DNA of 64,000 bases from Desulfatibacillum alkenivorans DSM 16219 (GTDB lineage Bacteria > Desulfobacterota > Desulfobacteria > Desulfobacterales > Desulfatibacillaceae), in NCBI RefSeq assembly GCF_900142135.1, contig NZ_FQZU01000003.1, positions 124,001 to 188,000 of the forward strand, written 5' to 3'. Below are positions 9,727-43,172 of the stretch, piece after piece. Every line of letters begins with the position of its first letter. Positions within the stretch are counted from its first letter, which is position 1. The notes below the pieces were generated by a model. It did no database searches. It was not told the DNA's origin and saw only the letters and a list, made by a program, of their open reading frames with translations. A program made the translations under genes and the position numbers.

Positions 9727-9792
9727 TTTGCTCCGGCGGGCTTTAAGCCGTCAAACAGCATTGAAGTTGCGTAAACAACATAAGGAGAAATC

Positions 9793-21499: not shown

Positions 21500-21575
21500 T
21501 TGTTATTCTATAGTGATAAAATTCCCGGCAGCTTGCTGCAATTTTTTTTACGCCCCATGGTTGACTAGAGGGGCT

Positions 21576-26362: not shown

Positions 26363-27706
26363 TTAAGCCGCCGCATCTCTTTGGGGTTTTCTATCCTCCC
26401 CTTTCACCTCGCCCAACAGCATTTTGGCGAACAATCTGCCCATGCCCATGATGGTCAGGGAGGGCGGCACGCCGGGCGATTGGGGCAGCACGGACCCGTC
26501 GCAGACGTATAGGTTTTCAATTTCCGTCATAAAACTCTCGTCCACGACCTCGCCCATGGCGGCGGTGCCGCCGGGATGGCCGCCGATGCCCCGCCCCACG
26601 GCGATGGACGAGGGGGCGGCGCCCGCCTTGATCAGGATGTCCTTGGACAGATCCACGCCCCGTTTCATGCGTTTATTGTCCAGGTCGGTCAGGGGCTTGC
26701 TGATTCTTCCATCCTCGTACACCCTTCCCTGATGCTCGTCCCCCAGCTTGACGAAAAGCCCCATGCCTCGTTTGGCGTAAGGCAGCCGGGATACGTTTTT
26801 GCCCAAGACGTTCAGGGCCATGAAGCCGGTCATGATGGCGGCCAGGGCGGAGATGTTGCCTATGATAAAATGGTCGCTCTCCTTGAATTCCTCGATGGCG
26901 TGGGTAAAGGACATTTCCTTCCAGGCGCCCTGGCCCGGATCCTTGGCCTGGGCCGCCACAATATCCATGGGGTCCATGTAGAAACTGCCGCCTACGTTTT
27001 TCAGGCCGGATTTCAGCAGGATGCGAGGGGTTCCCACGCCGCCGGCGGCTACGATCACTTTTTCCCCGCGAAAAATTTCTCCGCCTTTGATCATGACCCC
27101 CTTTGCCTTGCCCCCTTCCGTAAGGATTTTCTCCACAGGCGCCGAAACCTTCAATTCCGCCCCGCTGGAAACGGCCTGATCCACCCAGGTCCGGGTGGTC
27201 CACTTGGCGCCCCGGGGGCAGCCCAGCATGCAGGAATCGCAGCCTACTTTGCATTTGGAGGGATCGATGAACTTGTCCTGCTCCCGAAAGTGGATTCCCA
27301 TGTCTTCGGCGGCCCGGAGTATGCGTTTGCCGCCGATGCAGTGGTCGTAAAAATGGGAAGGCAGGGTTTTAATGCCGATTTCATCCCGCACCTCGTGCAC
27401 TTCCTGGGAAAAATCCAGCCCCATTTGCTCGAAAACCCGTTGGGGCGGGTTGAACACATTGCCGTTATACACCATGGACGAGCCGCCCACGGTAATGCCC
27501 CGGGCGATAAACACTCCTTCCATGGACCGGCAGAACAGGCCGTGGCCCTCCAGAATTCTGGGGCCGAATGGAAAACCCAAAGCCTTTTCGTGGCGCGGCC
27601 CTCTTTCCACCATAAGAACTTTTTTGCCGGCCCTGGCCAAATCCCTGGCCACGGGCGCGCCCCCGGGCCCGGTGCCCACGATGATGTATTCGTATTCCTG
27701 AGTCAT
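26363..27706 (-). CDS. GMC-type FAD oxidoreductase with CX3CX2CX3C motif
   Basis: The 447-residue protein starts with a dinucleotide-binding motif (YIIVGTGPGGAPVARDLA), has ITVGGSSMVYNG typical of GMC flavoproteins, and ends with the second family signature around IGGHPGGTAAMG and CDGSVLPQSPGVPPSLTIMG. Residues 152-163 hold C152-x3-C156-x2-C159-x3-C163-P, which looks like a [4Fe-4S] site and recalls cysteine patterns in long-chain alcohol oxidase relatives. It is the last gene of the operon, 30 bases after the 382-residue reductase subunit. Oxidation of an alcohol intermediate or electron transfer to or from the reductase are both possible; the sequence does not decide. Confidence 0.75.
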   Translation of the reverse strand: MTQEYEYIIVGTGPGGAPVARDLARAGKKVLMVERGPRHEKALGFPFGPRILEGHGLFCRSMEGVFIARGITVGGSSMVYNGNVFNPPQRVFEQMGLDFSQEVHEVRDEIGIKTLPSHFYDHCIGGKRILRAAEDMGIHFREQDKFIDPSKCKVGCDSCMLGCPRGAKWTTRTWVDQAVSSGAELKVSAPVEKILTEGGKAKGVMIKGGEIFRGEKVIVAAGGVGTPRILLKSGLKNVGGSFYMDPMDIVAAQAKDPGQGAWKEMSFTHAIEEFKESDHFIIGNISALAAIMTGFMALNVLGKNVSRLPYAKRGMGLFVKLGDEHQGRVYEDGRISKPLTDLDNKRMKRGVDLSKDILIKAGAAPSSIAVGRGIGGHPGGTAAMGEVVDESFMTEIENLYVCDGSVLPQSPGVPPSLTIMGMGRLFAKMLLGEVKGEDRKPQRDAAA

Positions 27707-27736
27707 ATTTACCCCCTCCGGCCTGGATTCGGCCAG

Positions 27737-28885
27737 CTATGATTGCCTGTTCCGGACCATTTCAAAAAAGGCCTGCACTCTGGTGCGCATCTGGCCTTCC
27801 CCGCCGCCGTACATTTCCCGCTCCAACGAGAGCATGGGAAAACCCAGCCGTTTGGACTCCTGCTTGAGCAGAAAGTTTTCGCCTCCCCAAAGGTCGCAGA
27901 ACATGAGCTTTTCCGTGATAAGCGCGTCGGTGCGATAGTCTTTCATGATTTTTTCCAGCGAAGCGGAGCGTTTGTCGAATTCGTCGATCATGCGCGGGCA
28001 CGAGACTTCGTAAAGATAGCGTTTGGCAACGGCGGCGATGGGATCTCCGTACTCCTCCACGGATACGTCCGCGCGCCTTCCACCCGTGCACAAGTTGTCC
28101 GCAACGGCTATGGCGCCGCAGCTTTCAATCATTTGAATGTGCTCGATTTCCTCCATGGCCCCTCCGGCCAGGACAATGCGGAGCTTACCCTCGCCGTCTA
28201 TTCTTCGGTTTTGAAGCTCTATTGTCAACTGTTCCAGCAAATCCACGGCGTTTTCCACGGGAATCGAAGTCATGGCCGACTGCACCGCCAGCATTTCAGC
28301 CCCGAAAATCGGCGGCTCGGGCAGCTTGCGCATTTCGTTTAAGCCTCGAAGCAGTTCTCGGCGCTGGTTGTAGATCGCTATGGAATTTTGGAGAGCTTCC
28401 GTTGTCAGGGCCGCGTTAAAATGTTTTTCCAGGACATCCGAAAAATCCCTTAATTCGTCGAGAAAACGCTGAAAGGAAGTCTCTGAGGTCGTGTGCGGCG
28501 CCACGAACATATGGAGGAATTCCGGCCCCAGGCCCTGGGTTTGGAATGCGTTGCGCCAGTTGTCATACATTCGCCTGGCGTGATCGCAACCGTTCATGAA
28601 AACCACGCCGTTTAAAAACGCAAACTCGCTGTTCAGGGCCTTGTCGAAAATATGGCGCACCAAGCTGCAGTTGATGGCGGAATAGTACGTATCCCCCAGC
28701 CGGGTTTCCTTGCTTCCGACCGCTCTCAAACGATAAGGAACCATGCCCGCCGCGTGGATGATTTCTTCGGGGACGAAGGAGCACATATAGCCGAGTATTT
28801 TCCTCCCTTCGTCCGCGGCTTGGGTTATGTATTCGTTGACGTCTTTTTCAGCCAGTTTTTTGATGATGTCCAGAGTATCGCTCAT
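27737..28885 (-). CDS. BcrC/BzdN-like subunit, set 2
   Basis: This 382-residue [4Fe-4S] protein belongs to the 2-hydroxyacyl-CoA dehydratase/benzoyl-CoA reductase family, a close paralogue of the protein at 20345-21499. Conserved blocks are YMCSFVPEEIIHAAG, FMNGCDHARRMYDNW and EKLMFCDLWGGENFLLKQ. The length matches the smaller subunit of Azoarcus-type (Bzd) class I benzoyl-CoA reductases (about 380). Its ATG overlaps the stop of the 462-residue subunit by four bases, so the two are probably made in equal amounts and form the catalytic heterodimer. It would bind the CoA substrate together with that partner. Confidence 0.87.
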   Translation of the reverse strand: MSDTLDIIKKLAEKDVNEYITQAADEGRKILGYMCSFVPEEIIHAAGMVPYRLRAVGSKETRLGDTYYSAINCSLVRHIFDKALNSEFAFLNGVVFMNGCDHARRMYDNWRNAFQTQGLGPEFLHMFVAPHTTSETSFQRFLDELRDFSDVLEKHFNAALTTEALQNSIAIYNQRRELLRGLNEMRKLPEPPIFGAEMLAVQSAMTSIPVENAVDLLEQLTIELQNRRIDGEGKLRIVLAGGAMEEIEHIQMIESCGAIAVADNLCTGGRRADVSVEEYGDPIAAVAKRYLYEVSCPRMIDEFDKRSASLEKIMKDYRTDALITEKLMFCDLWGGENFLLKQESKRLGFPMLSLEREMYGGGEGQMRTRVQAFFEMVRNRQS

Positions 28886-30270
28886 GCCAGTCCGTTGCTC
28901 CTGAAAAAATCCTCAAATTGCCTTTTGACTTCCTCTTCCGTGACATGCCGTTTGTCGAAAATATCCGAGCTGACGAACAAGCTGGGCAGCCCGGCCTCCC
29001 GGCAAACGTCCCTGAACATCTTGCGCAACGCCCAACCTCCCTTGCATCCCTGGTGGCCCATGAAGATAAAGCAGTCGCCCGAATACTCGTCGATGATCTT
29101 CTTGAACTCCTCCAGGTAAAACTCTGCAGGGCCTCGTGTGTGGCGGACCATGGTGCAGTACAGGTGGGTTTTGGCCAGATCCCGGACCATGGTTTCCGGG
29201 GATGACGTATCAATGGGCACGGTCTGAATGCGGCCCATGAAGTCGGAAACCACCACGGCGCCAAACTTTTTTTCCAGCCAGGGAAACAACGGAGCGAATA
29301 CCAGGGGCACGTCGTACCAGATCATCCTGATCTTTTCTTTTTCGATGAAACTTCGCTTTTTCCGGAGCCGCTCCCTGGCGTTGGCGTGCACCAGTTCGGC
29401 GAATTCCATGCCGTTGGGCGACCCAAACGCCGCCATCCGCCCCAGCCAGCTAAGCAGCAAGGGCTCCACGCTGGTGGGGGAGGGCACGGCCCTGGACATC
29501 TCGGATAGTTCCTGGAGATAATGATTGGTTTGGTTGACGTTTGCGCAGATTTCCCGGAGCTTGTCCCAATCCAGTTTTTGATCCAGGTGTTTTTCCAGAA
29601 AGGCGATGAGGTCCCAGAGATTGTTTTCGTAATGCTTGAAGGATTTGTCATCGTCCCAGTAGGGCGTATCAAGCACAAACATGGGAACCTTGGTCATGTA
29701 CTGCAGGGTCTGATAGCTGGACGCCACGGAATCACAAGGATGGGAGCTGGAAATGATGACGTCCGGCTTGGGCGCCTCGTTGGCCAGCAGCGCTCCCACG
29801 GCCGTCTTGGCGGCCGAACAATGTTCGGGCGCCATGCCTTCCTCTTCAGCCCGTTCAATCATTTCCACGGCCGCGTCCGAGCCCGCCATCTGGGAGACGA
29901 TGGCAAAGGTTTCCGGCACGTACTGGCGTACGTCAAAAGCCCGTAGAATTTCATTGGACAGATTCCATTCCGACCAAACCATGGGCTTGTCGCTGGCTTC
30001 GTCCATGACATTTTCCATATAGGCGTTGAGATCCCTGGAGAGTATGCCCAGCGCCTTCAAATCCTTGGGATCGGACATGGCGCAGCCGGCCAGCAGAATG
30101 AAAAATCTGAAATGTTTATTAAACGAGTTCTCGTCTTGAATGGCAAGAGGCAGCATCAAACGCCGCACCCAGCCAAGGGCCCTGGGATAGCGCGACAGCA
30201 TGGCGCCAAACCGGGAGGCCCGAAGCGCAGCCCGGCTGATCGCAAAGTTTTCCGTAGATGGATTGTTCAC
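28882..30270 (-). CDS. BcrB/BzdO-like subunit, set 2
   Basis: The 462-residue protein is the larger HgdA/BcrB-type subunit. The C-terminal segment FIFMGHQGCKGGWALRK carries a cluster cysteine in the family's GHxGCK context, and ISSSHPCDSVASSYQ another. The length fits BcrB/BzdO (430-450). It follows the two activase genes by 12 bases and overlaps the small subunit. With them it completes a four-gene set with the composition of class I ATP-dependent benzoyl-CoA reductase (two activase-like plus two catalytic-like). A 2-hydroxyacyl-CoA dehydratase role is the main alternative, though dehydratases normally use one homodimeric activator. Confidence 0.83.
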   Translation of the reverse strand: MNNPSTENFAISRAALRASRFGAMLSRYPRALGWVRRLMLPLAIQDENSFNKHFRFFILLAGCAMSDPKDLKALGILSRDLNAYMENVMDEASDKPMVWSEWNLSNEILRAFDVRQYVPETFAIVSQMAGSDAAVEMIERAEEEGMAPEHCSAAKTAVGALLANEAPKPDVIISSSHPCDSVASSYQTLQYMTKVPMFVLDTPYWDDDKSFKHYENNLWDLIAFLEKHLDQKLDWDKLREICANVNQTNHYLQELSEMSRAVPSPTSVEPLLLSWLGRMAAFGSPNGMEFAELVHANARERLRKKRSFIEKEKIRMIWYDVPLVFAPLFPWLEKKFGAVVVSDFMGRIQTVPIDTSSPETMVRDLAKTHLYCTMVRHTRGPAEFYLEEFKKIIDEYSGDCFIFMGHQGCKGGWALRKMFRDVCREAGLPSLFVSSDIFDKRHVTEEEVKRQFEDFFRSNGLA

Positions 30271-30282
30271 AGGTCCTCCCTT

Positions 30283-31083
30283 TCATTTACGCCTAGACCC
30301 CTCCTTGAAAGGATCGCCCTGCTGAGCCATTAAGGCGGCTCCGAAAGCCCCAAAATTCTGGGGCGGCATGGGCAATGAGACCGTTTTTCTTTCCGTCATT
30401 TGTTCAAACCGGTCGGCGAAAGCGGGAACCGCCGCCAATCCTCCTCCCAAGGCCACATTGTCTTGGGCCTGAATCCTTTCAAAAAGGGTGGCGGCCCGGC
30501 CTGCGATGGAATGAAGCACTCCGGCGATGATATCCGTGTTGTTCCGGCCGTGATTGACTTGGGTGATCACCTCGCTTTCCGCGAAAACCGCACAATTGCT
30601 GGATATTACGTAAGGTTCTCTGGATAGCTCCGCATATTGGGATATGGATGAAAATGGAATTTCAATGGCCTGGGCCGACATCTCCAGAAATTTACCGCTG
30701 CCCGCCGCGCATTTGTCATTGGATAATGCTCTCTCAAAAACACCCTTCTCGTCAATGGCTGTGACTGTGAGGAACAGGCCGCCGCAATCCAGCACGGTGC
30801 GTATGGTCGGGTCCAGGGCGAAAGCGCCTTTGGCTGCACAACGATCCGACGACATGGTAAAGGACGTTTTTTTAACCAGCTTTGCACCGTAACCCGTGGA
30901 AACCAGCTTTTTCACCTGCCGTTTTTTGATTCCGGCCTGTTCCAGGGCCTTTTTATAAACTCCGGCGATCACCCGGTCTATGTCCCGGGAAACATCCTGG
31001 CCGGCCCATCCCATCACTTCGCCGTCCTTGACGATGCATGCCTTAACGAACCTCGTCCCCACGTCGATTCCCGCGCTAATCAT
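30283..31083 (-). CDS. ATP-dependent activase-like subunit (BcrD-like), set 2
   Basis: The 266-residue protein is a BadF/BcrA-family ATPase with GIDVGTRFVKACIVK, LDCGGLFLTV, NDKCAAGSGKFLEM, SNCAVFAESEVI and GGGLAAVPAFADR. The cysteines in KCAAGSG and NCAVF are placed to bind the bridging [4Fe-4S] cluster at the dimer interface. It is a paralogue of the protein at 21576-22343. It overlaps the neighbouring activase by eight bases, so the two are translated together and probably form a heterodimer that drives electron transfer at the cost of ATP. Confidence 0.87.
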   Translation of the reverse strand: MISAGIDVGTRFVKACIVKDGEVMGWAGQDVSRDIDRVIAGVYKKALEQAGIKKRQVKKLVSTGYGAKLVKKTSFTMSSDRCAAKGAFALDPTIRTVLDCGGLFLTVTAIDEKGVFERALSNDKCAAGSGKFLEMSAQAIEIPFSSISQYAELSREPYVISSNCAVFAESEVITQVNHGRNNTDIIAGVLHSIAGRAATLFERIQAQDNVALGGGLAAVPAFADRFEQMTERKTVSLPMPPQNFGAFGAALMAQQGDPFKEGSRRK

Positions 31084-31867
31084 GATTTCCGTTTTCCTTT
31101 TGGGCGAAAATGGCGGCGCCCAATGCGCCGATGATTTGAGGGTCCACAGTCAACGGCGTGAACTTGACGTCCAGCAGCTTTTCCATGCGGCTTACCACTC
31201 CCACGTTTTTGGAAACGCCCCCGGTTATGGCGAAGTTCGGCTTTAATGGAACGGACTTTGATAGGGACGCAACCCGTTTTGCCACAGCGTTGTTTATTCC
31301 GGCGGCGATGTCCCTGGCCTTCCGCTTTTTATAAACGTGCTGCATCACCTCCAGTTCCATGAATATGCTGCATTTGTTGGTCAGGTTGATTGGCTTGCGC
31401 GCTTTTTGGGAAAGCGGCCCAAGCTCGTGCAATTCCACGTCCAGGGCCTTGGCCAGCACCTCCAGGCATCGTCCCGTGCCGGCCGCGCATTTGTCGTTCA
31501 TGATGAACTCCTGCACCAAGCCGTTTTCGTCAATGGAGATGACTTTGCAGTCCTGCCCGCCGATATCCACAATGGTGCGTATGGAGTTATCCGCCCAATA
31601 AGCGCCCATGCCGTGGCACGAAATCTCGCTGATGTTCTTTTGGGAGAACGGAATGGCCTGGCGTCCGTATCCGGTGCTGTAGCAGGCGTCAATGTCGCTG
31701 TATTTCAGGCCCGCCTGGGCCAAGGCCAGATCCATGACGCATACGGCGGATTTTTCGGCAGTGGCCCGGACTCCCATGATTTTTGACGTCAATACTTGCG
31801 AGTCCTTGAGAATGACGGCTTCCGCAGTCAGGGACCCCACATCGCAACCGGCGACGATCATATACAA
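31076..31867 (-). CDS. ATP-dependent activase-like subunit (BcrA-like), set 2
   Basis: The 263-residue partner has AGCDVGSLTAEAVILKD, VDIGGQDCKVIS, NDKCAAGTGRCLEV, TNKCSIFMELEV and TGGVSKNVGV. It is similar to the set 1 protein at 22340-23128 along its whole length. It lies just downstream of a terminator-like hairpin that separates it from the acyl-CoA dehydrogenase gene, so the reductase genes may be expressed at a different level from the upstream genes. No strong Shine-Dalgarno sequence is visible; CGCGGAGCATTGT precedes the ATG. Confidence 0.87.
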   Translation of the reverse strand: MYMIVAGCDVGSLTAEAVILKDSQVLTSKIMGVRATAEKSAVCVMDLALAQAGLKYSDIDACYSTGYGRQAIPFSQKNISEISCHGMGAYWADNSIRTIVDIGGQDCKVISIDENGLVQEFIMNDKCAAGTGRCLEVLAKALDVELHELGPLSQKARKPINLTNKCSIFMELEVMQHVYKKRKARDIAAGINNAVAKRVASLSKSVPLKPNFAITGGVSKNVGVVSRMEKLLDVKFTPLTVDPQIIGALGAAIFAQKENGNHD

Positions 31868-31893
31868 TGCTCCGCGTGGGTTAATTGGCAGGG

Positions 31894-31923
31894 AAAAAGG
31901 GGGAAGGCCCTCCGCCCTCCCCC
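31894..31923 (-). terminator. Internal terminator or attenuator inside the catabolic operon
   Basis: On the minus strand GGGGGAGGG (31923-31915) pairs with CCTTCCCCC (31907-31899) with one non-canonical position and a 7-base loop, and TTTTT follows immediately (31898-31894). It lies between the first acyl-CoA dehydrogenase gene and the activase gene, so it may reduce expression of the reductase genes or end one transcription unit. Confidence 0.6.
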
Positions 31924-31941
31924 TATTGGAAAGAGCTGAAT

Positions 31942-33069
31942 TCAGCCTTTGCCAAGCAGGGAATCCATGTATTTGAGCTTTTTCATGGGAGCTATGCCCA
32001 TCAAGGCCTGGATTTGCTTGGCGTCACGGAGCCTTTTTTCCTGGCCGTGATCTTTCATGTACCCCACCCCTCCCAAAACCTGTACGCCGTCCGTTGCCGC
32101 CTCGCAGGCGAAGGCGCTCGCCTGGATGGCGGCGACCCTGGCCGCCGCCTGCCACTTGGGCTGATTGTTATCCGCAGCCTCGCACGCCCGGGAGAGCATC
32201 ATTTCCGCCGACTTGGCCTGAATGGCGATATTGGCCAACATCATTTTCACCTCGGACCAGTCCACAATCTCCCGGCCGCCCTGCTCCCGCTCTTTGCAGT
32301 AAGCCAGGGCTTCAGCAAAGCACCCTTCCATGATTCCCGAGGCCATGGCCGCCTGGGCCGCGTGCATGCGGTCCGCCGCTTTGTCGAAATATTCCTTGCC
32401 CTTGCCCTCCTTGCCCACAAGCAGGGCCGGGGCTTTATCCAGGGATATGTCCACGGCCGGACAGGCGTGGAGGCCCAGGCTGAAAATGGGCTCGCTCACG
32501 GAAACGCCCTTGCCTTTCAAGTCCACCAGATAAAAGGAAAAATCCTGTTCATTTCCCTGGCAGGCGGGCAGCAGCGCGTAGGAGCCAAGCCCGCCAAGAA
32601 CCACATAGGGAACCTCGCCGGATAGCGTTGCCTTTTGCTTGGTTTTTTTCACTTGGGCCAGATGCCGGACTTCCGACGGATTGTTGAAGGAGGGGAAGGC
32701 CAGTAAAAAGCCGAATGCGTCCTTTTGCTGGGCGATTTTATCCTCAAACAATTTTTCCGCCTTGGCGATGAGCATGATTTCCTGGGCCAGGGCGTTGGTA
32801 AAAATCATGCCGCCCAGGCTGGCGTCCTGGCTGCACAGGCTTTTCAGAATCACGCTTAATCCCGAAAGCCCCAGCCCCATGCCGTCCAGCTCCACCGGCA
32901 AGGAGGCGTGGAAAAAGCCCAGGCCAAAAGCCTTTTTTACCACCTTGTCCCAAAAAGGACCGAACGGATATTGGTCGTATTCCTCACGATTGGGCGCAAG
33001 CTCCTTGGCTGCGAAATCCGTGGCAGCGCCGTCCACCAGTTTTAGTTCTTTATCCCCCCTGCAGAGCAT
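31942..33069 (-). CDS. Acyl-CoA dehydrogenase family protein
   Basis: The 375-residue flavoprotein has the helical-sheet-helical ACAD plan: N-terminal helices (FGLGFFHASLPVELDGMGLG), a short middle domain (VPYVVLGGLGSYALLPACQG), and a C-terminal helical domain ending VQVLGGVGYMKDHGQEKRLRDAKQI. Family members remove two hydrogens from C2-C3 of an acyl-CoA and pass electrons to ETF. The canonical glutamate base cannot be placed with certainty, and the middle domain deviates from standard ACADs (no clear AxTEP), so it may be a diverged partner of the 501-residue protein next to it. ATG 33069 has AAGGAGG directly upstream. Confidence 0.8.
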   Translation of the reverse strand: MLCRGDKELKLVDGAATDFAAKELAPNREEYDQYPFGPFWDKVVKKAFGLGFFHASLPVELDGMGLGLSGLSVILKSLCSQDASLGGMIFTNALAQEIMLIAKAEKLFEDKIAQQKDAFGFLLAFPSFNNPSEVRHLAQVKKTKQKATLSGEVPYVVLGGLGSYALLPACQGNEQDFSFYLVDLKGKGVSVSEPIFSLGLHACPAVDISLDKAPALLVGKEGKGKEYFDKAADRMHAAQAAMASGIMEGCFAEALAYCKEREQGGREIVDWSEVKMMLANIAIQAKSAEMMLSRACEAADNNQPKWQAAARVAAIQASAFACEAATDGVQVLGGVGYMKDHGQEKRLRDAKQIQALMGIAPMKKLKYMDSLLGKG

Positions 33070-33114
33070 AGGACCTCCTTGCTGTATGCGCGCGGACGAA
33101 ACATCGTCCGGGTT

Positions 33115-34620
33115 TTAGGCGTCGTGAAAAACGCAGGACTGCGGACACGCCCGGCTGATCAGACATTTGAAAAGATTTAACCGGTTCAGTTGATTGGTTC
33201 CCTCGTAAATCTGCAAGAGCTTGGCGTCGCGAAAATGCTTCTCCGCCCTTTGGTCGTGGCGCAATCCCGCCTGCCCCATAAGCTCCAGGGCCATATGGCA
33301 GTTTTTCATGCCCAGGTCCGTACCCGAGAACTTGGCCAACGAGCCCCATCCCGATGTGCGGTGCAACTCTTCTTCGGGCTGACTGTCGAAGCTCTGCTTG
33401 CGCAGCCATTTGGTTGTCAGGCCGTTTCCCACAAGCGCCGGCGCGATTTTATCCAGGAAAAACTGGGGCGCGTATTTTGAAAACTGGAACATGCCCTTGG
33501 AAAGCATGGACTTGTAAATGCCGGAGCTGGCGTTATGATGGTTGGTTTCCATATAGGCCAGCCGGGCCAGGTTGACGTTCTTATACATTTCCGCCAGCAT
33601 GCATTGCGCCCATTCATGGTTGGCAAGCAGCTTGCCGTCCACCTCGGTTTCGTTGGCGAAAGCCAGGGCTTCTTCGTATGCTCCCCGGGCCGCGCCCGTG
33701 GCAAACGCGGCCACGCCCGCGCGGGTGGCGCCCAGCACATAATCCAGAACCTGCTGAAAGGTGTGCTTGGCGTCCCGCTTCAAGTCCTTGATTTGTTCAG
33801 GATCCAGGGCGACCATGTTGTCCGGGACAAAGCAGTCCTTAAAAACCAGCTCGCTGGCCGGGCACGCCCGCTGCCCCATTTTTTTCTCATGACGTCCGAA
33901 CGAAAAGCCTTTCTGGCCGGTCTGCACCAACATGCACACGGTGTTTTGCGAGGGAAGGTCCAGGTCGGAATAAGCGATGACCACGTGCCACTTGGACAAA
34001 TGGCCGTTGGAAATAAAAATCTTGGTTCCGTTGACCACATACCCGCCGTCCACCTTTTTAGCGTGGCAGGTAATATTGCCCTTGTCGATCAGGTCCGGCT
34101 CCTCCACGTCCGTGCCGGCGCCGGGCTCGGTGATAGCCAGGGAGATGATGCGGGGATCGCCCGCTTTTTCCCCGGCGGCCACGTCCCGGAAGATTTTCAT
34201 CATCAACGGCGCGTTCCAGGTGGCCGCCAGAGTGGCCATGCCCAGGTAATGCACGCCGATAAGGTTCGCCATGCCTACGCAGGCGGAACCGATTTCCTCC
34301 ACAAAGGCGCTCATGGAGTGCATGAAGTACCCCTTGCCGCCGAAAAGGCGGGGAACCCACATGGTGTAAAAGCCCCAGTCGTTGGCCTTTTTTACAAAAT
34401 CCCAAGGGAGAAAATCCGGGTCTTCGTGCACTTTGCGGTCGAGCTCCAGGACGTACGGCCTGACGACCTCCTTGTTGAATCGTCTGGCTAAATCCACCAC
34501 CTCCCGGGTTTCCTTTATCAAGGCCCTGGGCGTGGCATGGGTGGAAACCAGGCTGGCCGCCACGTCGTTCAGGTCCGGCGCGCATTGCGCGTATTCCGGC
34601 GTACAGGGTTGGTATGTCAT
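33115..34620 (-). CDS. Acyl-CoA dehydrogenase (long form)
   Basis: The 501-residue protein is a fuller ACAD. It has SLAITEPGAGTDVEEPD (flavin and substrate binding), VNGTKIFISNGHLSKWHVV, KMGQRACPASELVFKDCFVP, and the C-terminal EKHFRDAKLLQIYEGTNQLNR motif. It is about 110 residues longer than the usual 380-390. It starts at ATG 34620 with GAGG eight bases upstream, 31 bases after the ligase gene. Together with the ligase it would activate and dehydrogenate a carboxylic acid; electrons would leave via ETF, whose genes are not in the window. Confidence 0.88.
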   Translation of the reverse strand: MTYQPCTPEYAQCAPDLNDVAASLVSTHATPRALIKETREVVDLARRFNKEVVRPYVLELDRKVHEDPDFLPWDFVKKANDWGFYTMWVPRLFGGKGYFMHSMSAFVEEIGSACVGMANLIGVHYLGMATLAATWNAPLMMKIFRDVAAGEKAGDPRIISLAITEPGAGTDVEEPDLIDKGNITCHAKKVDGGYVVNGTKIFISNGHLSKWHVVIAYSDLDLPSQNTVCMLVQTGQKGFSFGRHEKKMGQRACPASELVFKDCFVPDNMVALDPEQIKDLKRDAKHTFQQVLDYVLGATRAGVAAFATGAARGAYEEALAFANETEVDGKLLANHEWAQCMLAEMYKNVNLARLAYMETNHHNASSGIYKSMLSKGMFQFSKYAPQFFLDKIAPALVGNGLTTKWLRKQSFDSQPEEELHRTSGWGSLAKFSGTDLGMKNCHMALELMGQAGLRHDQRAEKHFRDAKLLQIYEGTNQLNRLNLFKCLISRACPQSCVFHDA

Positions 34621-34651
34621 GGGTTTACCTCGCGGGCCGCCGGGCGGCTGG

Positions 34652-36376
34652 TTAAGGATTGAGTGCGTCGAATGCGTCGGGCGTTACGCCTTCCTGTTCC
34701 AGGACTCGTTTGATGATCCGGTGCGAGTTGGTCATGGGAAAATCCTCCACAACCCGTACGTACCGGGGCACGGCGAATTTGGCGATTTTGTTGGAAAGAA
34801 AATCCCGAAGATCTCCGGGGGCGAAAGGCGCGCCGTTCACCAGCTTGACTGCCGCCATGATTTCGTCCTCGGCCAGGTCCGACGGCACGGCGTAAACGGC
34901 AACGTCTTCCACGGCCGGATGCTTCATGATCACGTGCTCCACTTCGTAAGCGGAGACGTTCTCTCCGCCCTTGCGCATGGACTCCGTATTCCGGCCCACA
35001 AAATACACGTAGCCCCGTTTGTCCGTGCGGACCTTGTCGCCCGTGTACATCCAGCCGTCCCGCACCTTTTCGTTGGTGGCTTTTTCGTTTTTGTAATAGG
35101 GCACGCCCTGGCCGTCCCCCTTGACCTGAAAAATCAATTCCCCGGGCTCGCCGGGCGGGCAGTCCCGGCCCTGGTCGTCGATAATGCGGGTGACGCCCAT
35201 GCGCTTGGACAGCTTGCCCAAAGCGCCCACGGGCGCGGTGCCGAAATTCATGATGCCCTTTCCCCCGCTGTCCACGGCGCCGTAGCCTTCGTAAATGGTC
35301 ACTCCAAAGCGCTTTTCAAAGGGCTTCCACATGTCCGTGGGGCAGGCGGCGGACAGGACGAAACGCACCTTGTTCACCCGGTCGTCCGGCCTTTCGGGCT
35401 GCTTCATCAAGATGGGGATGATGGAGCCTATGGTGTTGAACACCGTGACGTCGAACCTTCGGATGTCATGCCAGAAACGGCTGGCCGAGAACCGGCGCGC
35501 CAGGGCGATGGTTCCGCCCATGGCCATGGAAAGGGTGACCGTCAAAAGCATGGCGTTGCCGTGGGCCAGGGAGAATGACGTGTAATACACGTCGTTTTTG
35601 TTCAGCAGCACCCCCGCCATGAGGGAAAGCAGCTTCACCCGGGATGTATTCACTTTGTACACCACCCCTTTGGGCCGCCCGGTGGTGCCTGAAGTGTACA
35701 TAATCATGCACTTGTCCGAGCGATCCGCATATCCGATGCGGGGATCGCGGGTGGACGCCACCGGATGCCAGGCCTTGGAAAGAAGATCCACACCCTCGGG
35801 GATGCCAAAATCCCCGGCCTCCTCCTCCACGTCGTCCACAATAATGCTTTTAAGGCTTTTCAACTGATCGCGGACCATCATGACCGGTTCGGCCAGCTCC
35901 GCGTCGCAGGCCAGAAATTTGATGTCGCTGTGGTTGATCACATATTGCAGGCCGTCGCCCCGCAATTCGCAATTGATGGGCACCACGTACATGCCCAGTT
36001 TTTGGGCTGCAAAAAACAGGTCCAGGAAGCGGGGCGAGTTGCGCATGAAAATCCCCAGCCCCGCCTTTTGCTCGGCGCCGAGCTGCAGCAGGAAATTGGC
36101 CGTGCGGTTGGCGTTCTCGTCCATTTGCCTGTAGGTGTAACATTCCTCCTTATAGCGAAGCATGATCCGGTCCGGGTGCTTTGTGGCTTTTTCCTCCAGC
36201 AGCTCCGCCCAGGACATGTCGTGCGCCATGCCTCCCTGGCGCAGCCCGGCCAGGTTGGCGGCGAGTGTTCCCCTTTTGGCTTCCGTCCCCAGGAACCTGA
36301 CGAAAGAGCCTATGCCCCGGCGGGCGAGCCGAAGCTTTTGGGCCAGAAATTTCAATTCCTGCAATTGTTCGTTCAT
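34652..36376 (-). CDS. Acyl-CoA ligase, FadD/FATP-like
   Basis: From ATG 36376 the protein has 574 residues. I chose this start for AAGGAG at a spacing of seven; ATG 36379 is nearly as good, while the longer frame from 36421 overlaps the thiolase end. Adenylation motifs are IMYTSGTTGRPKGVVYKV, YEGYGAVDSGGKGIMNFGT, YTGDKVRTDKRGYVYFVGR and the hinge NTESMRKGGENVSAYEVE. The order of motifs and the EGYGAVDSG region resemble very-long-chain/FATP-type ligases. It forms acyl-CoA from a free acid at the start of the pathway and is the second gene of the operon after the thiolase. Confidence 0.87.
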   Translation of the reverse strand: MNEQLQELKFLAQKLRLARRGIGSFVRFLGTEAKRGTLAANLAGLRQGGMAHDMSWAELLEEKATKHPDRIMLRYKEECYTYRQMDENANRTANFLLQLGAEQKAGLGIFMRNSPRFLDLFFAAQKLGMYVVPINCELRGDGLQYVINHSDIKFLACDAELAEPVMMVRDQLKSLKSIIVDDVEEEAGDFGIPEGVDLLSKAWHPVASTRDPRIGYADRSDKCMIMYTSGTTGRPKGVVYKVNTSRVKLLSLMAGVLLNKNDVYYTSFSLAHGNAMLLTVTLSMAMGGTIALARRFSASRFWHDIRRFDVTVFNTIGSIIPILMKQPERPDDRVNKVRFVLSAACPTDMWKPFEKRFGVTIYEGYGAVDSGGKGIMNFGTAPVGALGKLSKRMGVTRIIDDQGRDCPPGEPGELIFQVKGDGQGVPYYKNEKATNEKVRDGWMYTGDKVRTDKRGYVYFVGRNTESMRKGGENVSAYEVEHVIMKHPAVEDVAVYAVPSDLAEDEIMAAVKLVNGAPFAPGDLRDFLSNKIAKFAVPRYVRVVEDFPMTNSHRIIKRVLEQEGVTPDAFDALNP

Positions 36377-36387
36377 CATCCTGCTCC

Positions 36388-37803
36388 TTAGGTTGACGGC
36401 GCTTCCAATATATGGATGCACATGGCCGCCTCTTCAGCGCCCAAAGCGCCGCCCCCGTTTTCCGCAAGGCCCAGCTTGGGGTTGTTAATCTGCCGGTCTC
36501 CGGCCTGTCCGCGCAACTGAACCGTCAGTTCGTGAATTTGTGCAAGCCCGGATGCGCCGATGGGATGGCCGCGTGAAGTCAGTCCGCCGCTTGTGTTAAT
36601 GGGAATCTGTCCGTCCAGTTTGGTGGCGCCGGACTCGGCGAAAATCCCGCCCTCCCCGATCGGGCAGAAGCCCAGGTTTTCCGCCTGGCGCATTTCTCCG
36701 TAAGCCGTGGCGTCGTGAACTTCGGCCAGGCTGATTTCCTCAGGCCCCACTCCGGCTTTTTCGTAGGCGATTTTGGAAAGCCGCTCTCCGATTTCCGGCT
36801 GGTCAAACCCGTGAGGCCGATCCATGCCCGAACCCAGCACCGAAGCGCGAATCTTGACCGCTTGCTTTTGCAGGCCCAACTTGCGGACCATGGGGCCGGA
36901 GCAAACTATTGCGGAAGCCGCTCCGTCGCCGATGGGCGCACACATGGACCGGGTCAGGGGCCACGTCACCAAACGGTCGGCCAAAACCTGATCCACGCTA
37001 ACCTCAAACCGGTATTGCGCGTTGGGGTTTAATGTGGAGTTGAAATGGTTCTTGGAGGCGATCACGGCCAGTTGCTCCACCGTGCTGCCGAACTGCTTCA
37101 TGTGTTGGCGGGCGGCAAATCCGTACACGTCCATAAAGGGGGAATGATCGCCGGAATTTACCGCCGCCAATTTGCGGACCTTGTCGTACCCGATGGCCTC
37201 CCCAAGGCGGATGGCCACGGTCAGGTTATCCCAAAGGTCCTTGGCCCGGCCCTTTAAGCGGGCGGGCAATTTGGGTTTGCGTTTGGACTTTTTGTCGGAA
37301 CCGTTGGGGCCGGCGTATCTTTCCTGGAACTCCTTCATCTGGCGCAGATCGTCCGCGTTCAACTGAAAGTCGGTGAGCCCCTCCACGATGTCCGCGCAGT
37401 TTTCAATGTCGATGCCGCCCAGAAATCCGGCGAAAACAGCCGCCCGGTTCGAGTGGTACAGTTTTTCCGCGCCCAGGGCCATGGCGACGTCGTACAAGCC
37501 CGAGCCCACGCCCATCCAGGCGTTGTGCAAGGCCGTGGACGCGCTGGCGCACGCGTTTTCCACATTGGTTATGGGAATTTTGTCCAGCCCGATATGCCGC
37601 AAGGCCACCTGGCCCCGGATGCAGGCCTGGCCTTTATCGCCCCAGCCTGAATTGGAGAACCACAAAGCCTGGATGTCGTCCTTTTCCAGCCCCGCGTCCT
37701 CCAGGCAGCCCTTGAAGGTCATGGCTGCCAGGTCCTTTACGCTGTGCTCCAGATACTTGCCGAATTGTATGGTGTGCACTCCCACCACATAAACGTCTCG
37801 CAT
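36388..37803 (-). CDS. Thiolase (SCP-x-like acetyl-CoA acetyltransferase)
   Basis: From ATG 37803 (GGGGGATCC upstream; the longer frame to 37890 looks non-coding) the protein has 471 residues. It has NVENACASASTALHNAW with the nucleophilic cysteine, EVHDATAYGEMRQAENLGF and NTSGGLTSRGHPIGASGLAQ with the second active-site segment. HDAT and GHPIGA are signatures of the SCP-x/thiolase-like lipid transfer group. It would cleave a 3-ketoacyl-CoA. It is the first gene of the operon facing the GntR regulator. An insertion near residues 190-215 (GSDKKSKRKPKLPARLKGR) is unusually basic. Confidence 0.87.
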   Translation of the reverse strand: MRDVYVVGVHTIQFGKYLEHSVKDLAAMTFKGCLEDAGLEKDDIQALWFSNSGWGDKGQACIRGQVALRHIGLDKIPITNVENACASASTALHNAWMGVGSGLYDVAMALGAEKLYHSNRAAVFAGFLGGIDIENCADIVEGLTDFQLNADDLRQMKEFQERYAGPNGSDKKSKRKPKLPARLKGRAKDLWDNLTVAIRLGEAIGYDKVRKLAAVNSGDHSPFMDVYGFAARQHMKQFGSTVEQLAVIASKNHFNSTLNPNAQYRFEVSVDQVLADRLVTWPLTRSMCAPIGDGAASAIVCSGPMVRKLGLQKQAVKIRASVLGSGMDRPHGFDQPEIGERLSKIAYEKAGVGPEEISLAEVHDATAYGEMRQAENLGFCPIGEGGIFAESGATKLDGQIPINTSGGLTSRGHPIGASGLAQIHELTVQLRGQAGDRQINNPKLGLAENGGGALGAEEAAMCIHILEAPST

Positions 37804-38024: not shown

Positions 38025-38810
38025 ATGCAGAAGCATGAAAAAGCTTTGAATAAATTGGCAAAAGACATTTTTACGCGCCGTTTGCAAGCAGGGGGCAAGC
38101 TGCCCAGCGAGCGGCAGCTTTCCCAGGATATGGAGATTGACAGGACCTCCCTGCGGATTGCCCTGAAGCATTTGGAATCCATGGGGGTGTTGGACATTCG
38201 CCAGGGGGACGGCATTTATGTGAAGGATTACACCCACCACGCCGGTCCGGATTTTTTGCAACTGGTGGTGGAGTCGGACGATCTGAACGCCCCGGGCTCG
38301 GTGGTGGACGATTATCTGATGGACGAAATGTGGGAGTTTTGGGGCGCCTATTTCCCGGTCTTGTTAAAGATGTCCTCCAAAAAGGCGTCTCCCCGGGACA
38401 TGCGGGATCTCATGACCCTGCTGGACGAGGAATTGGAGCATGTGCACGACCGGGATAAAATTGTGGAACTGGACCTGCTGGCCGAAGAGAGAATCGCCCG
38501 GGCCACCGGCAATATGGTGATCATGCTTTATTCCAACGCCTCCCGGACCATACGCCGCAACATGGTCAAGGCCTTTTACGACAGGGTGGACGACGACACC
38601 GTGCGGCTGCACGTGGAGATCAAGCGGGCTTTGGTTAAGGACTGGGCTTCGGGCGCCATGACCGCCGAGGAACTGGCCGACCATTACGCCCAGGTTTTGG
38701 AAGCGCATCGCGCGGCCATCAAGAAGACCAGAAGCAGCAACGGCGCCGCCGCAGCCATGCTGGAGGAGTACAAGGACGCCTTGGACAAGACGGGCTCCGC
38801 CAAAGTTTGA
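38025..38810 (+). CDS. GntR/FadR-family transcriptional regulator
   Basis: The 261-residue protein has an N-terminal winged helix-turn-helix (LPSERQLSQDMEIDRTSLRI ... GVLDIRQGDGIYV) followed by an all-helical FadR-like C-terminal domain rich in acidic residues. Such proteins repress catabolic or fatty-acid genes until an acyl-CoA or organic acid binds. It is divergent from the thiolase-ligase-dehydrogenase-reductase operon, with a FadR/PdhR-type palindrome between them, so local repression of that operon is strongly suggested. The inducer is probably a CoA ester or free acid of the pathway (inference). Confidence 0.87.
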   Translation: MQKHEKALNKLAKDIFTRRLQAGGKLPSERQLSQDMEIDRTSLRIALKHLESMGVLDIRQGDGIYVKDYTHHAGPDFLQLVVESDDLNAPGSVVDDYLMDEMWEFWGAYFPVLLKMSSKKASPRDMRDLMTLLDEELEHVHDRDKIVELDLLAEERIARATGNMVIMLYSNASRTIRRNMVKAFYDRVDDDTVRLHVEIKRALVKDWASGAMTAEELADHYAQVLEAHRAAIKKTRSSNGAAAAMLEEYKDALDKTGSAKV

Positions 38811-39360: not shown

Positions 39361-40122
39361 ATGCCGCGCAGGAAGATGGAAATGGAGGATCTGTCTCCCT
39401 TGGGTGTGTACAAGGAGGGGATGGAATGGAACCCGCTGGAAAAAATCATATTCGAGCGCCGGAGCATCCGGGCTTTTAAAAAAGAGCCTTTGCCCGACTC
39501 CATGATTCGCCGGATTCTGGAGGCGGGCAGATTCGCGCCGTCCGCAGGCAACCAGCAGCCCTGGAAGTTCGCGGTGGTCAAGAATCCGGAAATCCTGGCC
39601 GAGATGGAGGCGGACGCCATTAAGATGGCCAAAATCATGATGTTCTTTCTGGACAGCTCCCGGAGCGAGTTCCGCAGAAAATACACGTCGTGGTACACCC
39701 GGCTCATGATCCGCATCAAACCCAACGAACTGCATCCCGTTCCATTCTCCCTGCTCAAGCTCATTGCAGACGGCAAGACGGGCGTATTCCACGGAGCGCC
39801 TACGCTGGTGCTGCTTTTTCAGGATAAACGGGGCGTGTCCTGCCCGCCTTTGGACATGGGCGTCTGCGGCGAGCACATGGTGCTGACGGCCCACTCCATG
39901 GGCGCGGGATCTTGCTGGATCGGGCTTGTCAAACTCCTGTTCTATTACCCCAAATGGCGAAAGTTTTTCGACCTCAAATGGCCTTACGAGTGCAACGAGT
40001 GCATTGCTCTTGGCTGGCCCAAGGGGGATTATGACGGCGAGGTCAAACGGGAAATGCAATTGGTGACCTGGTACGAAGGGGGCATGGACGAGCCTCCCAG
40101 GGTGGAAAGGCAGGGAGGGTGA
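39361..40122 (+). CDS. Nitroreductase-family flavoprotein
   Basis: The 253-residue FMN protein has IIFERRSIRAFKKEPLPD, ILEAGRFAPSAGNQQPWKFA and GAGSCWIGLVKLL, the signature blocks of NfsA/NfnB-type nitroreductases. A central insertion (FFLDSSRSEFRRKYTSWYTR) makes it longer than the usual 200. Family members transfer electrons from NAD(P)H or ferredoxin to nitro groups, quinones or flavins. AAGGAGGG lies before ATG 39361. The next gene, starting two bases after the stop, is a two-cluster ferredoxin, so ferredoxin-coupled reduction is likely here. The convergent tandem TetR protein may regulate it. Confidence 0.82.
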   Translation: MPRRKMEMEDLSPLGVYKEGMEWNPLEKIIFERRSIRAFKKEPLPDSMIRRILEAGRFAPSAGNQQPWKFAVVKNPEILAEMEADAIKMAKIMMFFLDSSRSEFRRKYTSWYTRLMIRIKPNELHPVPFSLLKLIADGKTGVFHGAPTLVLLFQDKRGVSCPPLDMGVCGEHMVLTAHSMGAGSCWIGLVKLLFYYPKWRKFFDLKWPYECNECIALGWPKGDYDGEVKREMQLVTWYEGGMDEPPRVERQGG

Positions 40123-40123
40123 G

Positions 40124-40474
40124 ATGAATAAATTAAGCGCGCTGGACCGGTTTAACATCCCGGATTATTTCGATCCTCAACAGCTTGTGACCGCAAACCT
40201 GGACTTTTCCGACGATAAATGCGTCCGGTGCCGGCTGTGCACCGTCATCTGCCCGGGGCGATCCATTGTCATGGATCGGGGCGCAAAAGGAAAGAAAAAG
40301 CCCCTGCCTTACCTGGAGGAAATCGTGCCGGACATCACCGGCTGCATCGGGTGCGGCTGCTGCGCTGCGGCCTGTCCGGAAGGGGCGATTTCCGTTACGT
40401 CGGCCTTTTTGCCCACCAAATTCTATTTGCACCTGCACCAGACCGCGGATATGAGCTTTCCGAAAAAATATTGA
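40124..40474 (+). CDS. 2x[4Fe-4S] ferredoxin domain protein
   Basis: The 116-residue protein has CVRCRLCTVICPGRS and CIGCGCCAAACPEGA, the two CxxCxxCxxxCP sites of bacterial-type ferredoxins, with about 35 residues between them. An N-terminal helix of 30 residues and a C-terminal tail (YLHLHQTADMSFPKKY) extend beyond the cluster core. It is coupled to the nitroreductase gene (stop TGA then one base then ATG), so it is probably the electron carrier for that enzyme. Cytoplasmic; no signal peptide. Confidence 0.88.
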   Translation: MNKLSALDRFNIPDYFDPQQLVTANLDFSDDKCVRCRLCTVICPGRSIVMDRGAKGKKKPLPYLEEIVPDITGCIGCGCCAAACPEGAISVTSAFLPTKFYLHLHQTADMSFPKKY

Positions 40475-40484
40475 GACGCGGTTT

Positions 40485-41852
40485 TTACTTTTTCGCCTCC
40501 CCCGGGAACAGCATGTCGTACAAGGTGGGGAAGAACAAAAAGACCAGGGTGTCTTTCACCCACTGGCGGTATTCCTTGGATTGGGGGTCCATGCCTGCAA
40601 TCCTGGCCGGATACGCGGGGGAGCCCACGCAGCTGTAGGTGATGGTCACCAGGCAGTGGAGCCACATTTGGATCACCTTGGGCGGGGCGTCCGGGAAAAA
40701 TCGCTCCTGGATCATGTCCATGACGCACTTATGGTAGAACATGACGAATTCAAAGCCGGGAATCTCCTCGCCCCGGTCCATTTGGGCCATGTTCTGCATA
40801 AGCACCATTTCGGCGGCCGGGTTTGCGAAGCTGTTGGACAGGATGCGTCCAAAGGCTTCGGTGAGCGCCGCCAGCGCGGGCATGGTCTCCAGGCCTTCCA
40901 TGATGTCCTGGTTGACGTCCAGGGAGCGTTCCAGCAGGTCCACGCCCACGGCTTCGAACAATTCCTTTTTGGTGGGAAAATAATGGTGGATGAGGGTGAA
41001 GTCAAACCCGCCTTTTTTGCCGATCATGCGGATGCTGGCCGTGCTGTATGGATTGGTGGAAAAAACCTCCCGGGCCGCATCCAGAATTTTCAGGCGAGTG
41101 GCCTCGCCTTTGCGAAGATGGCTGTGCAATCCTGACGGCTTTTTCTTTTTCCGGCCGTAGCCCCTGGGGGCGATGGGGCCGAAATCCTGCACCTGGGTTC
41201 CCTTCATGACTCTTTGAAGGGGCGGCAGGAACAAGAACATCATGGCCTCTTTCACCCACTTGCGGTACTCGTCCGATTCAGGGTTCAGGTCTTCCGTCTT
41301 TGCGTGGAAATGCCTGGCGCCAAGGAAGTTGTTCAAGACCAGGGCGAAGGCGAACATCCACATGTAAAGCTCCTGGCCCGTGCCCTTGGGCGAGTATGCC
41401 TCCTTAAAAAATCCCGCCACCTTTTGCAGGGCTTTGCGCATGTTTTCCGCGCCGGGCAAAGATTTATCCAGAAAGTTCATGCCTCCCACATTCAGCATCA
41501 TCACTTTCATGAAGGAGGACTGGAACCCATGCTCCAAAATGCGGTCCAGGAACAGGGACAAGCCTTCCGCGGGGCTGACTTTTTCCAGGCCCGGAAGCAT
41601 GCTGAGTACGGTGGAGATAAACTCCTCGTTAAGCCGGGTGATATATTCCTCGAACAATCGGGCTTTGGTCTTGAAATGATATTGGATCAGGGGATGCTCG
41701 AATCCGCCTTTCTGGGCGATCTTCCGGACGCTGGCCGCCCCGAAGGGATGTTGGGAAAAAACCTTGTCCGCCGCCGCCAGAATTTTTTGCCGGGTGGCTT
41801 CCCCCCGAGCCTCCCCTTTGGAATGCGTCATTTTTGAATTCTCAGTCATCAT
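40485..41852 (-). CDS. Tandem TetR-family regulator (two repeats in one chain)
   Basis: The 455-residue protein contains two complete TetR units. Unit 1 has an HTH at residues 18-66 (ASVRKIAQKGGFEHPLIQYH). Unit 2 has an HTH at 250-298 (ASIRMIGKKGGFDFTLIHHY). Each is followed by a helical ligand domain that ends in the related segments YRKWVKEAMMFLFLPPLQ and YRQWVKDTLVFLFFPTLY. The link at 228-245 is basic (GYGRKKKKPSGLHSH). A normal TetR is a dimer of about 200-residue chains; here one chain could form a pseudo-dimer. It overlaps the upstream epimerase gene by 11 bases and is convergent with the ferredoxin gene. Confidence 0.85.
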   Translation of the reverse strand: MMTENSKMTHSKGEARGEATRQKILAAADKVFSQHPFGAASVRKIAQKGGFEHPLIQYHFKTKARLFEEYITRLNEEFISTVLSMLPGLEKVSPAEGLSLFLDRILEHGFQSSFMKVMMLNVGGMNFLDKSLPGAENMRKALQKVAGFFKEAYSPKGTGQELYMWMFAFALVLNNFLGARHFHAKTEDLNPESDEYRKWVKEAMMFLFLPPLQRVMKGTQVQDFGPIAPRGYGRKKKKPSGLHSHLRKGEATRLKILDAAREVFSTNPYSTASIRMIGKKGGFDFTLIHHYFPTKKELFEAVGVDLLERSLDVNQDIMEGLETMPALAALTEAFGRILSNSFANPAAEMVLMQNMAQMDRGEEIPGFEFVMFYHKCVMDMIQERFFPDAPPKVIQMWLHCLVTITYSCVGSPAYPARIAGMDPQSKEYRQWVKDTLVFLFFPTLYDMLFPGEAKK

Positions 41853-43020: not shown

Positions 43021-43172
43021 GTTGCCTCCTTTCCCCAAAAAATCATGGGGCGCGAAGCCGTCAATTTTTCAGTTTCTTTTGATAGTCCAGGACTTAACAC
43101 AGATAGGGGCGATTCTGCAAGAAACAGGATCGAGATTTTAACCATTAGTTGAAATGTACAGGGCGTGACGCC

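Follow-up and report, generated by a model that had tools for sequence, protein, structure and literature searches.

Class I benzoyl-CoA reductases push electron transfer past the usual biological redox window, according to the accessible part of PMC11971306. For the Bzd-type enzyme, the same part of that article gives Cys36, Cys73, Cys100, Cys263, Cys293 and Cys327 as the double-cubane ligands of BzdN, and places Cys95, Cys128 and Cys380 of BzdO at its cluster, together with Glu65 and His131; BzdNO was obtained there by production in E. coli. Here we describe an operon with a related core from Desulfatibacillum alkenivorans DSM 16219. It lies in a stretch of 64,000 nucleotides (positions 124,001 to 188,000 of NZ_FQZU01000003.1; hereafter the window), which is part of contig C34 of the 6.47 Mb host genome (G000). 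Desulfatibacillum is a genus of alkane- and alkene-using sulfate reducers. The core of the operon encodes two activase-type ATPases (A and D) and a large and a small subunit of the HGD-D family (B and C), and the sequences support an architecture like that of class I benzoyl-CoA reductases. We lean towards the view that this core is an ATP-driven, low-potential acyl-CoA reductase which resembles the class I enzymes, forms a separate clade and belongs to an undescribed pathway.

Organization of the operon

Nine open reading frames (ORFs) on the minus strand, all of them open, occupy positions 26363–37803. In the order of transcription they encode a thiolase, an AMP-forming ligase, two acyl-CoA dehydrogenases (ACADs) of 501 and 375 residues, A, D, B, C and a GMC-family flavoprotein. 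B and C overlap by 4 nucleotides and A and D by 8, so that the four core genes all overlap or almost touch. Pfam returned two matches to PF06050 (E-values of 6e-87 and 8e-65) and two to PF01869 (9e-54 and 2e-39), along with GMC, AMP-binding, acyl-CoA dehydrogenase, thiolase and GntR matches. The nine-gene order, the positions and the core lengths of 266, 263, 462 and 382 residues had been given in an earlier note on this DNA, and the ORFs and Pfam agreed with them. The thiolase, ligase and two ACADs ahead of the core, the GMC gene behind it, the overlaps, the GntR gene by the operon and the unusual Fe–S partner flavoprotein were likewise borne out. Both ACADs are present, but the shorter one lacks the catalytic Glu, and the two are better counted as probably one enzyme. 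The extent proposed for the module holds for 26363–37803, but it left out a paralogous module at 20345–23164 and nitroreductase and ferredoxin genes at 39361–40474.

Small subunit C

Sequences for comparison were drawn from 121 large- and 91 small-subunit-type ORFs of at least 330 residues. ORFs with common C-terminal ends were collapsed, which omitted 4 large- and 5 small-type shorter ORFs; the BzdO-like partner at locus L112 was among the short ones. The alignment and tree of C (382 residues; 27737–28885, minus strand) each comprise 68 rows, references included. Cys35, Cys73, Cys100, Cys266, Cys296 and Cys330 of C match the double-cubane ligands of BzdN, and all six cysteines are present in 11 of the 11 rows of the window clade, C and its paralogue C2 included. 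HadC keeps four of the six and MbdN three. The residues at the distal sub-cluster are R-R-R-H in BzdN, G-R-gap-Y or S-K-gap-Y in DCCP, and R-R-x-W in the window clade. In the tree, the 11 window-clade rows were united with support values of 100/100, and the BzdN (100/99) and DCCP (100/100) groups stood apart from them and from each other; the branches of HadC and MbdN are long and their own positions unsure. Against the NCBIfam cut-offs, C scored best with the double-cubane model NF040772 (199 bits, cut-off 350); its scores with HadC, BzdN and BcrC were 131 (cut-off 700), 126 (cut-off 454) and 117 (cut-off 421). Both trees were built without Bcr-type subunits, which were compared through hidden Markov models alone.

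Large subunit B

For B (462 residues; 28882–30270, minus strand), 87 rows including references were aligned, among them 16 of the window clade, one of which is cut short. The cysteines expected to bind the [4Fe-4S] cluster are invariant, with Cys151 and Cys179 found in 16 of 16 clade rows and Cys409 in 15 of 15. Glu120 takes the position of BzdO Glu65, where all 16 clade rows have Glu; as the BzdO stretch used begins after residue 65, this position was set via three BzdO-like rows (L113–L115). The HadB sequence covers only residues 6–267. B also contains the motif GHQGCK, and His406 and Lys410 are present in 15 and 14 of 15 clade rows, respectively. An N-terminal helical extension, common to clade members, precedes the part that matches other proteins. 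The predicted fold of B matched the catalytic subunits HadB, BzdO and MbdO with Z scores of 33–37 and DCCP with 31–32. As HadB, BzdO and MbdO all fall within the same range, the fold does not decide the function.

The B tree was built from 65 rows, with 22 of the 87 omitted as near-duplicates, cut rows or extra subunits (the window-clade row L038 among them). The 15 window-clade rows were united (100/99), with BzdO, MbdO and HadB across a branch supported at 100/97. The DCCP row, whose branch is very long, joined the side of the window clade; the MbdO and HadB branches are also long, the positions of MbdO and DCCP are unsure, and the BzdO and HadB sequences are partial. The best score of B against the NCBIfam equivalogs was 68 bits (cut-off 350), and that against BzdO was 38 (cut-off 449). 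The closest named relative of B, with 85% identity, is encoded in a Desulfatibacillum metagenome-assembled genome (MAG).

Activase-type ATPases A and D

Both A (263 residues; 31076–31867, minus strand) and D (266 residues; 30283–31083, minus strand) match PF01869 and score over the cut-off of TIGR00241. A reached 197 bits against the BzdQ equivalog (cut-off 380), and none of A, B, C and D reached any of the NCBIfam equivalog cut-offs for BzdN, BzdO, BzdQ, BcrA-D, HadB, HadC and NF040772. Both cluster cysteines are kept in 19 of 19 aligned activase rows, A and D included. A carries DIGGQD, and in D GGLF replaces GGQD. The two types were unlike in all nine pairs compared: the A-type protein had GGQD in eight and GAED in one (L101), and the D-type protein had GGQD in none. 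A and D are therefore an unequal pair, consistent with a heterodimer.

Gene set in other genomes

The operon order is the same in a genome of the same genus (G001), at 74–93% identity and with one small extra gene, and the arrangement is therefore not a matter of chance. In each of two genomes of another family (G088 and G399), genes for GntR, A, D, thiolase (65–66% identity), ligase (50%), a roughly 150-residue membrane protein, nitroreductase, ferredoxin, B, C and GMC stand together. In a MAG named Deltaproteobacterium (L067), the genes for A, D, B, C and GMC are accompanied by those for thiolase, ligase, the membrane protein and a nitroreductase–ferredoxin fusion, with neither GntR nor ACAD genes in the stretch seen. 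The order is C-GMC-B-A-D in G021 and, on a short contig, GMC-B-C in G125; G214 has A-D-C-B and, on a separate contig, GMC with the membrane protein. In G363, A-D-B-C lies near an oleate-hydratase family (MCRA) gene, an SDR gene and nitroreductase–ferredoxin. In G399 and G088, thiolase, ligase, nitroreductase and both ACADs make up another operon, which has a separate GntR gene; parts of this operon occur in G363, G003 and G214. Relatives of the ligase (45–65% identity) lie beside or close to thiolase genes in other genomes, and relatives of the GntR regulator (38–43%) adjoin A-D or thiolase genes. The window operon is one arrangement of a set that recurs, split or reordered, in other families.

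Co-occurrence was counted in phylum samples of 395 genomes drawn at the same setting, with relatedness ignored. B-clade proteins (above 460 bits) were present in 8 of the 395. A near-full-length match to the thiolase was also found in eight genomes, comprising 7 of the 8 with a B-clade protein and 1 of the 387 others (Fisher p 2e-13); ten further genomes matched in the C-terminal half only. The corresponding counts were 6 of 8 versus 4 of 387 for GMC (E 1e-85) and 8 of 8 versus 11 of 387 for the 501-residue ACAD (ACAD501; E 1e-110). GMC proteins with at least 45% identity occurred in 8 of 10 clade genomes and in none of five BzdN-like genomes. The one genome with the thiolase outside the B-clade group, G069, carries a diverged operon that encodes a ligase, a ferredoxin-like protein, a thiolase and both ACADs. 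When 84,980 species genomes were searched with a pattern-limited scan, nine loci came back, under the names Desulfatibacillum, Desulfatibacillaceae, Desulfobacterales, Deltaproteobacteria and, once, Proteobacteria. Gene content and co-occurrence, like the cluster-ligand positions and clade structure above, are direct observations.

Second module and other HGD-D genes of the host

The window contains a second module on the minus strand, consisting of activases A2 (274 residues; 22340–23164) and D2 (255 residues; 21576–22343) and the six-cysteine subunit C2 (384 residues; 20345–21499), which is 52% identical to C. A paralogue of B, also at 52% identity, is encoded at G000:C3:40786-42123, with no C, A or D gene within the 17 kb stretch read. 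In three genomes of the same family (G001, G005 and G008), a C gene slightly closer to C2 has no adjoining B gene, and a B gene is found on another contig; the C genes of G005 and G008 are close to contig ends, and the unlinked B genes are on long contigs only in G000 and G005 and on contigs of 3.0–5.8 kb in G001, G006 and G008. In the B tree, a single clade (100/99) unites the unlinked B proteins of G000, G005, G006 and G008. We infer that an unlinked gene may provide the large subunit B in trans. The relative of C2 in G001 (81% identity) leaves no room beside it for A2 and D2.

The host genome has 15 HGD-D and 13 BcrAD matches, distributed over contigs C3, C10, C26, C28, C34, C35 and C76. 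Contig C10 carries a class-I-like module with one small and two large subunits and two activases, together with a GMC gene and a 516-residue protein without a Pfam match. Two open frames of about 1400 residues (G000:C10:74489-76210 and C45:28912-30294) each contain two activase-type matches; we presume that these BcrAD-domain ORFs are possibly related to ether-lipid reductases.

GMC flavoprotein and other partner genes

The GMC-family flavoprotein (447 residues; 26363–27706, minus strand) contains a CxxxCxxCxxxC motif (Cys152, Cys156, Cys159 and Cys163), which is shared by all ten aligned sequences, namely the window protein plus nine relatives of 34–88% identity. In a wider set, the motif was present at 16 of 19 loci, and the three without it are distant (25–34%). 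The predicted fold, a mediocre model (mean pLDDT 69) with low confidence around the Cys motif, had fructose dehydrogenase and FAD-glucose dehydrogenase as its best matches. In FAD-glucose dehydrogenase, Cys212, Cys218 and Cys222 are given as the 3Fe-4S ligands in the accessible part of PMC6719666. In a profile alignment, Cys159 and Cys163 of the window protein coincided with Cys218 and Cys222, and Pro414 fell at the position of the catalytic Asn519. Pro414 occupied this position in 6 of 6 rows, and His377 is invariant but is not placed on His476 by the alignment; the catalytic pair His476/Asn519 is thus not found. The model and the alignment support a GMC protein of Fe–S type, with cluster cysteines in the loop that matches FAD-glucose and fructose dehydrogenases. 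In G000 and G001, a further class-I-like module, distant from this one, also has a GMC relative (34–35% identity) as its neighbour, and the pairing of GMC with such modules therefore recurs. The term "GMC oxidoreductase" alongside benzoyl-CoA reductase was absent among the matches listed in a search of the open-access literature. Benzene-activation clusters were considered and set aside: the accessible parts of PMC13101534 and PMC13416013 name other flavoproteins, and the word GMC occurs in neither.

ACAD501 (33115–34620, minus strand) carries IYEGT and keeps the catalytic Glu in the alignment. In the 375-residue protein (31942–33069, minus strand), which has no Pfam match to the middle domain, this Glu is replaced. 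At what we take to be the catalytic position of acyl-CoA dehydrogenases, Glu is kept in 6 of 6 rows of the longer protein and absent in 5 of 5 rows of the shorter one. The two are therefore probably one heteromeric enzyme, with the 375-residue protein as a non-catalytic partner.

The thiolase is of the SCP2/lipid-transfer type (471 residues; 36388–37803, minus strand; Thiolase_N and Thiolase_C_1). Its ATG was checked at 37803, the listed ORF extending from a TTG at 37890. The ligase ORF (589 residues; 34652–36421, minus strand) matches AMP-binding and AMP-binding_C. Olefin synthesis (by an Ole-type thiolase, an AMP ligase and the product of an epimerase-like gene at 41842–43038), suggested by the neighbouring genes, was set aside; the thiolase is SCP2-type, and no Ole model was among the best 25 families shown for the thiolase and ligase.

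The GntR-family gene (PF00392) diverges from the operon at 38025–38810 on the plus strand, and is followed on that strand by genes for a nitroreductase-family flavoprotein (253 residues; 39361–40122; PF00881) and a ferredoxin-like 4Fe-4S dicluster protein (116 residues; 40124–40474; Fer4 models). Nitroreductase relatives (54–55% identity) lie inside the clusters of L067, L099 and L100, and the ferredoxin is fused to the nitroreductase in L067. As both are found within or beside clusters in other genomes, the sequences place the nitroreductase and ferredoxin in the gene set. A CooC-like P-loop ATPase gene adjoins HGD-D/activase modules at L099:2927-4470, where it is beside a protein with a weak Pfam match to CdhC, and, as judged by eye, at L067:6797-8241 and L020:9711-11461; its product is possibly a cluster maturation factor.

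Elsewhere in the window, 40485–41852 is a single 455-residue ORF with two tandem TetR DNA-binding domains. By eye, two short genes at 19370–20343 resemble a toxin–antitoxin pair (a putative small DNA-binding protein and a P-loop zeta-toxin-like protein), and 8542–11876 contains a HemB-like gene flanked by two radical-SAM genes reminiscent of the siroheme-dependent heme pathway.

Proposed function and alternatives

Taking the gene set as a whole, we tentatively propose an anaerobic pathway not described before, whose ATP-driven, double-cubane, Birch-type reductase acts on a hydrophobic non-benzoyl acyl-CoA and works with an Fe–S GMC dehydrogenase, the large subunit being provided in trans in some genomes. 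This is a possibility that we hold with less confidence than the assignment of the core itself. A hydrophobic carboxylic acid of the fatty, alicyclic or aryl-alkyl type, and not benzoate, is the probable substrate. We infer the electron path, redox reaction, partner roles and substrate class as follows. The ligase would form the CoA ester. A ferredoxin, perhaps the 116-residue protein acting with the nitroreductase, would reduce a [4Fe-4S] cluster common to the A/D heterodimer, and ATP hydrolysis would drive electrons one at a time to the double-cubane [8Fe-9S] cluster of C. After storage there, the electrons would move on to the aqua-[4Fe-4S] cluster of B, where a radical, Birch-like step would reduce the acyl-CoA; Glu120 is the likely acid, and His406 may take the place of the absent BzdO His131. 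The GMC Fe–S dehydrogenase would then oxidise an alcohol or ring intermediate, with electrons leaving through its Fe–S cluster, and the ACAD pair and thiolase would complete chain or ring cleavage.

The earlier note had called the module Bzd-type class I. The class is borne out by the two ATPase types and the cluster ligands, and a module of this architecture, probably acting on a CoA ester, is supported; the Bzd label did not survive, as B and C fall in their own clades outside BzdO and BzdN, the equivalog cut-offs were missed, His131 has no counterpart and Oah/BamA was not found above the cut-off. A conventional class I benzoyl-CoA reductase serving the benzoyl-CoA pathway would account for the four subunits and the cluster ligands, and is nevertheless very improbable to us: clades and cut-offs (BzdN, BzdO, BzdQ and BcrA-D) speak against it, and Oah/BamA exceeded the cut-off in none of the ten clade genomes (best host score 97 bits, cut-off 464), with the reservation that the control is weak, only one of five comparison genomes (four with BzdN over the cut-off and G189 just under) being positive. 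A role with benzoyl-CoA is unlikely because of this absence, though four of the five comparison genomes lack Oah/BamA as well. The main rival explanation takes the enzyme for a redox-neutral (R)-2-hydroxyacyl-CoA dehydratase (or for a radical dehydratase or eliminase related to it), in which the double cubane would only relay a starter electron. Such an enzyme would fit the lack of BzdO His131, shared with the aligned HadB row, and the rank of HadB as best PDB match of B, but C has six double-cubane cysteines against four in HadC, the two activases are unlike, and neither B nor C groups with HadB and HadC, whose NCBIfam cut-offs were also missed. The phylogeny by which the earlier note had meant to separate such enzymes placed the subunits outside the 2-hydroxyacyl-CoA dehydratases, for which HadB and HadC were the only characterised representatives, and we judge this explanation unlikely. 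Somewhat less likely still is a biosynthetic or lipid-modifying system, in which the reductase would modify, and not degrade, an acyl-CoA destined for membrane lipids, such as one with an unsaturated or branched fatty acyl group. The MCRA gene near the G363 module is in its favour, and the two giant BcrAD-domain ORFs of the host would hint at reductive lipid chemistry if the link that we presume is correct; alkyl ether lipids have been reported from a Desulfatibacillum strain, in a source accessible in part. On the other hand, ligase, ACADs, thiolase and GntR are generally regarded as typical of catabolic operons.

Several observations weigh against our reading of the core as an acyl-CoA reductase. 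In the open-access literature we found no assay of any clade member. At the position of BzdO His131, none of the 16 clade rows has His, with V, S, N, T or M instead. The HadB and MbdO rows likewise have no His there (in HadB, Ala according to the accessible part of PMC11971306 and Val in our alignment), and aryl reduction is therefore compatible with the missing His. By sequence as well as fold, HadB, a dehydratase subunit, is the PDB protein that matches B best, slightly above BzdO. The co-occurrence counts ignore relatedness, and three of the eight B-clade genomes come from one family (f1) and three from another (f85). G069, in spite of its diverged operon, has no B-clade protein (best B match 282 bits). 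In G006, only an A-type activase lies beside B, C and GMC, the rest of that genome not having been searched for D; no GMC match was found in the G363 genome; and no large subunit stands beside A2-D2-C2 (20345–23164), with ORFs down to 60 residues listed in 18.8–20.4 kb. Given these last three cases, the composition of the complex may vary. Finally, the roles suggested for GMC and the nitroreductase derive from gene neighbourhood.

Comparison with known systems

The core shares with Bzd-type BzdNOPQ (8s02, PMC11971306) two ATPases and two HGD-D subunits, six double-cubane cysteines, and three [4Fe-4S] cysteines plus Glu. It differs from BzdNOPQ in that its subunits form their own clades, have R-R-x-W in place of R-R-R-H, lack His131 and carry the N-terminal extension on B, and in that the window set has GMC, thiolase and nitroreductase partners and no Oah/BamA above the cut-off. 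3-Methylbenzoyl-CoA reductase MbdONPQ (9g87, 9gai) has the same large-subunit fold and, by its entry title, four subunits, and MbdO is also without His131; MbdN, however, keeps three of the six cysteines against six in C, and MbdN and MbdO were placed apart in both trees, on long branches.

The (R)-2-hydroxyisocaproyl-CoA dehydratase HadBC (3o3m) is like B in its fold, in its cluster cysteines within the alignment and in the lack of His131. HadC is without two of the six cysteines, unlike C, and both HadB and HadC fall outside the window clades. The 2-hydroxyacyl-CoA dehydratases (HAD) are generally described as using one kind of activase. The window module has two types, and G006 has only one adjoining B and C. 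DCCP/YjiM (6eno, 7yyl; NF040772) is the best NCBIfam match of C and shares its six cysteines. E. coli yjiM–yjiL consists of one HGD-D gene and one activase gene, and the DCCP clade is separate (100/100). DCCP is a homodimer of one six-cysteine HGD-D protein, whereas the window has two unlike subunits, with three cluster cysteines in B. Concerning the GMC protein, FAD-glucose dehydrogenase and fructose dehydrogenase (6a2u, 7w2j) are the best fold matches, and two of its cysteines align with 3Fe-4S ligands. Those enzymes have a three-ligand 3Fe-4S site, whereas the window protein has four cysteines in CxxxCxxCxxxC and Pro414 for the catalytic Asn, and no cytochrome gene was seen in the window operon.

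The class I architecture was already known; new here is a separate clade of that architecture with a recurring, uncharacterised partner set. A clade that combines the same cluster ligands with another active-site His pattern and with recurring partners would extend the range of chemistry attributed to this fold, and the conserved gene set provides a defined target for finding the substrate.

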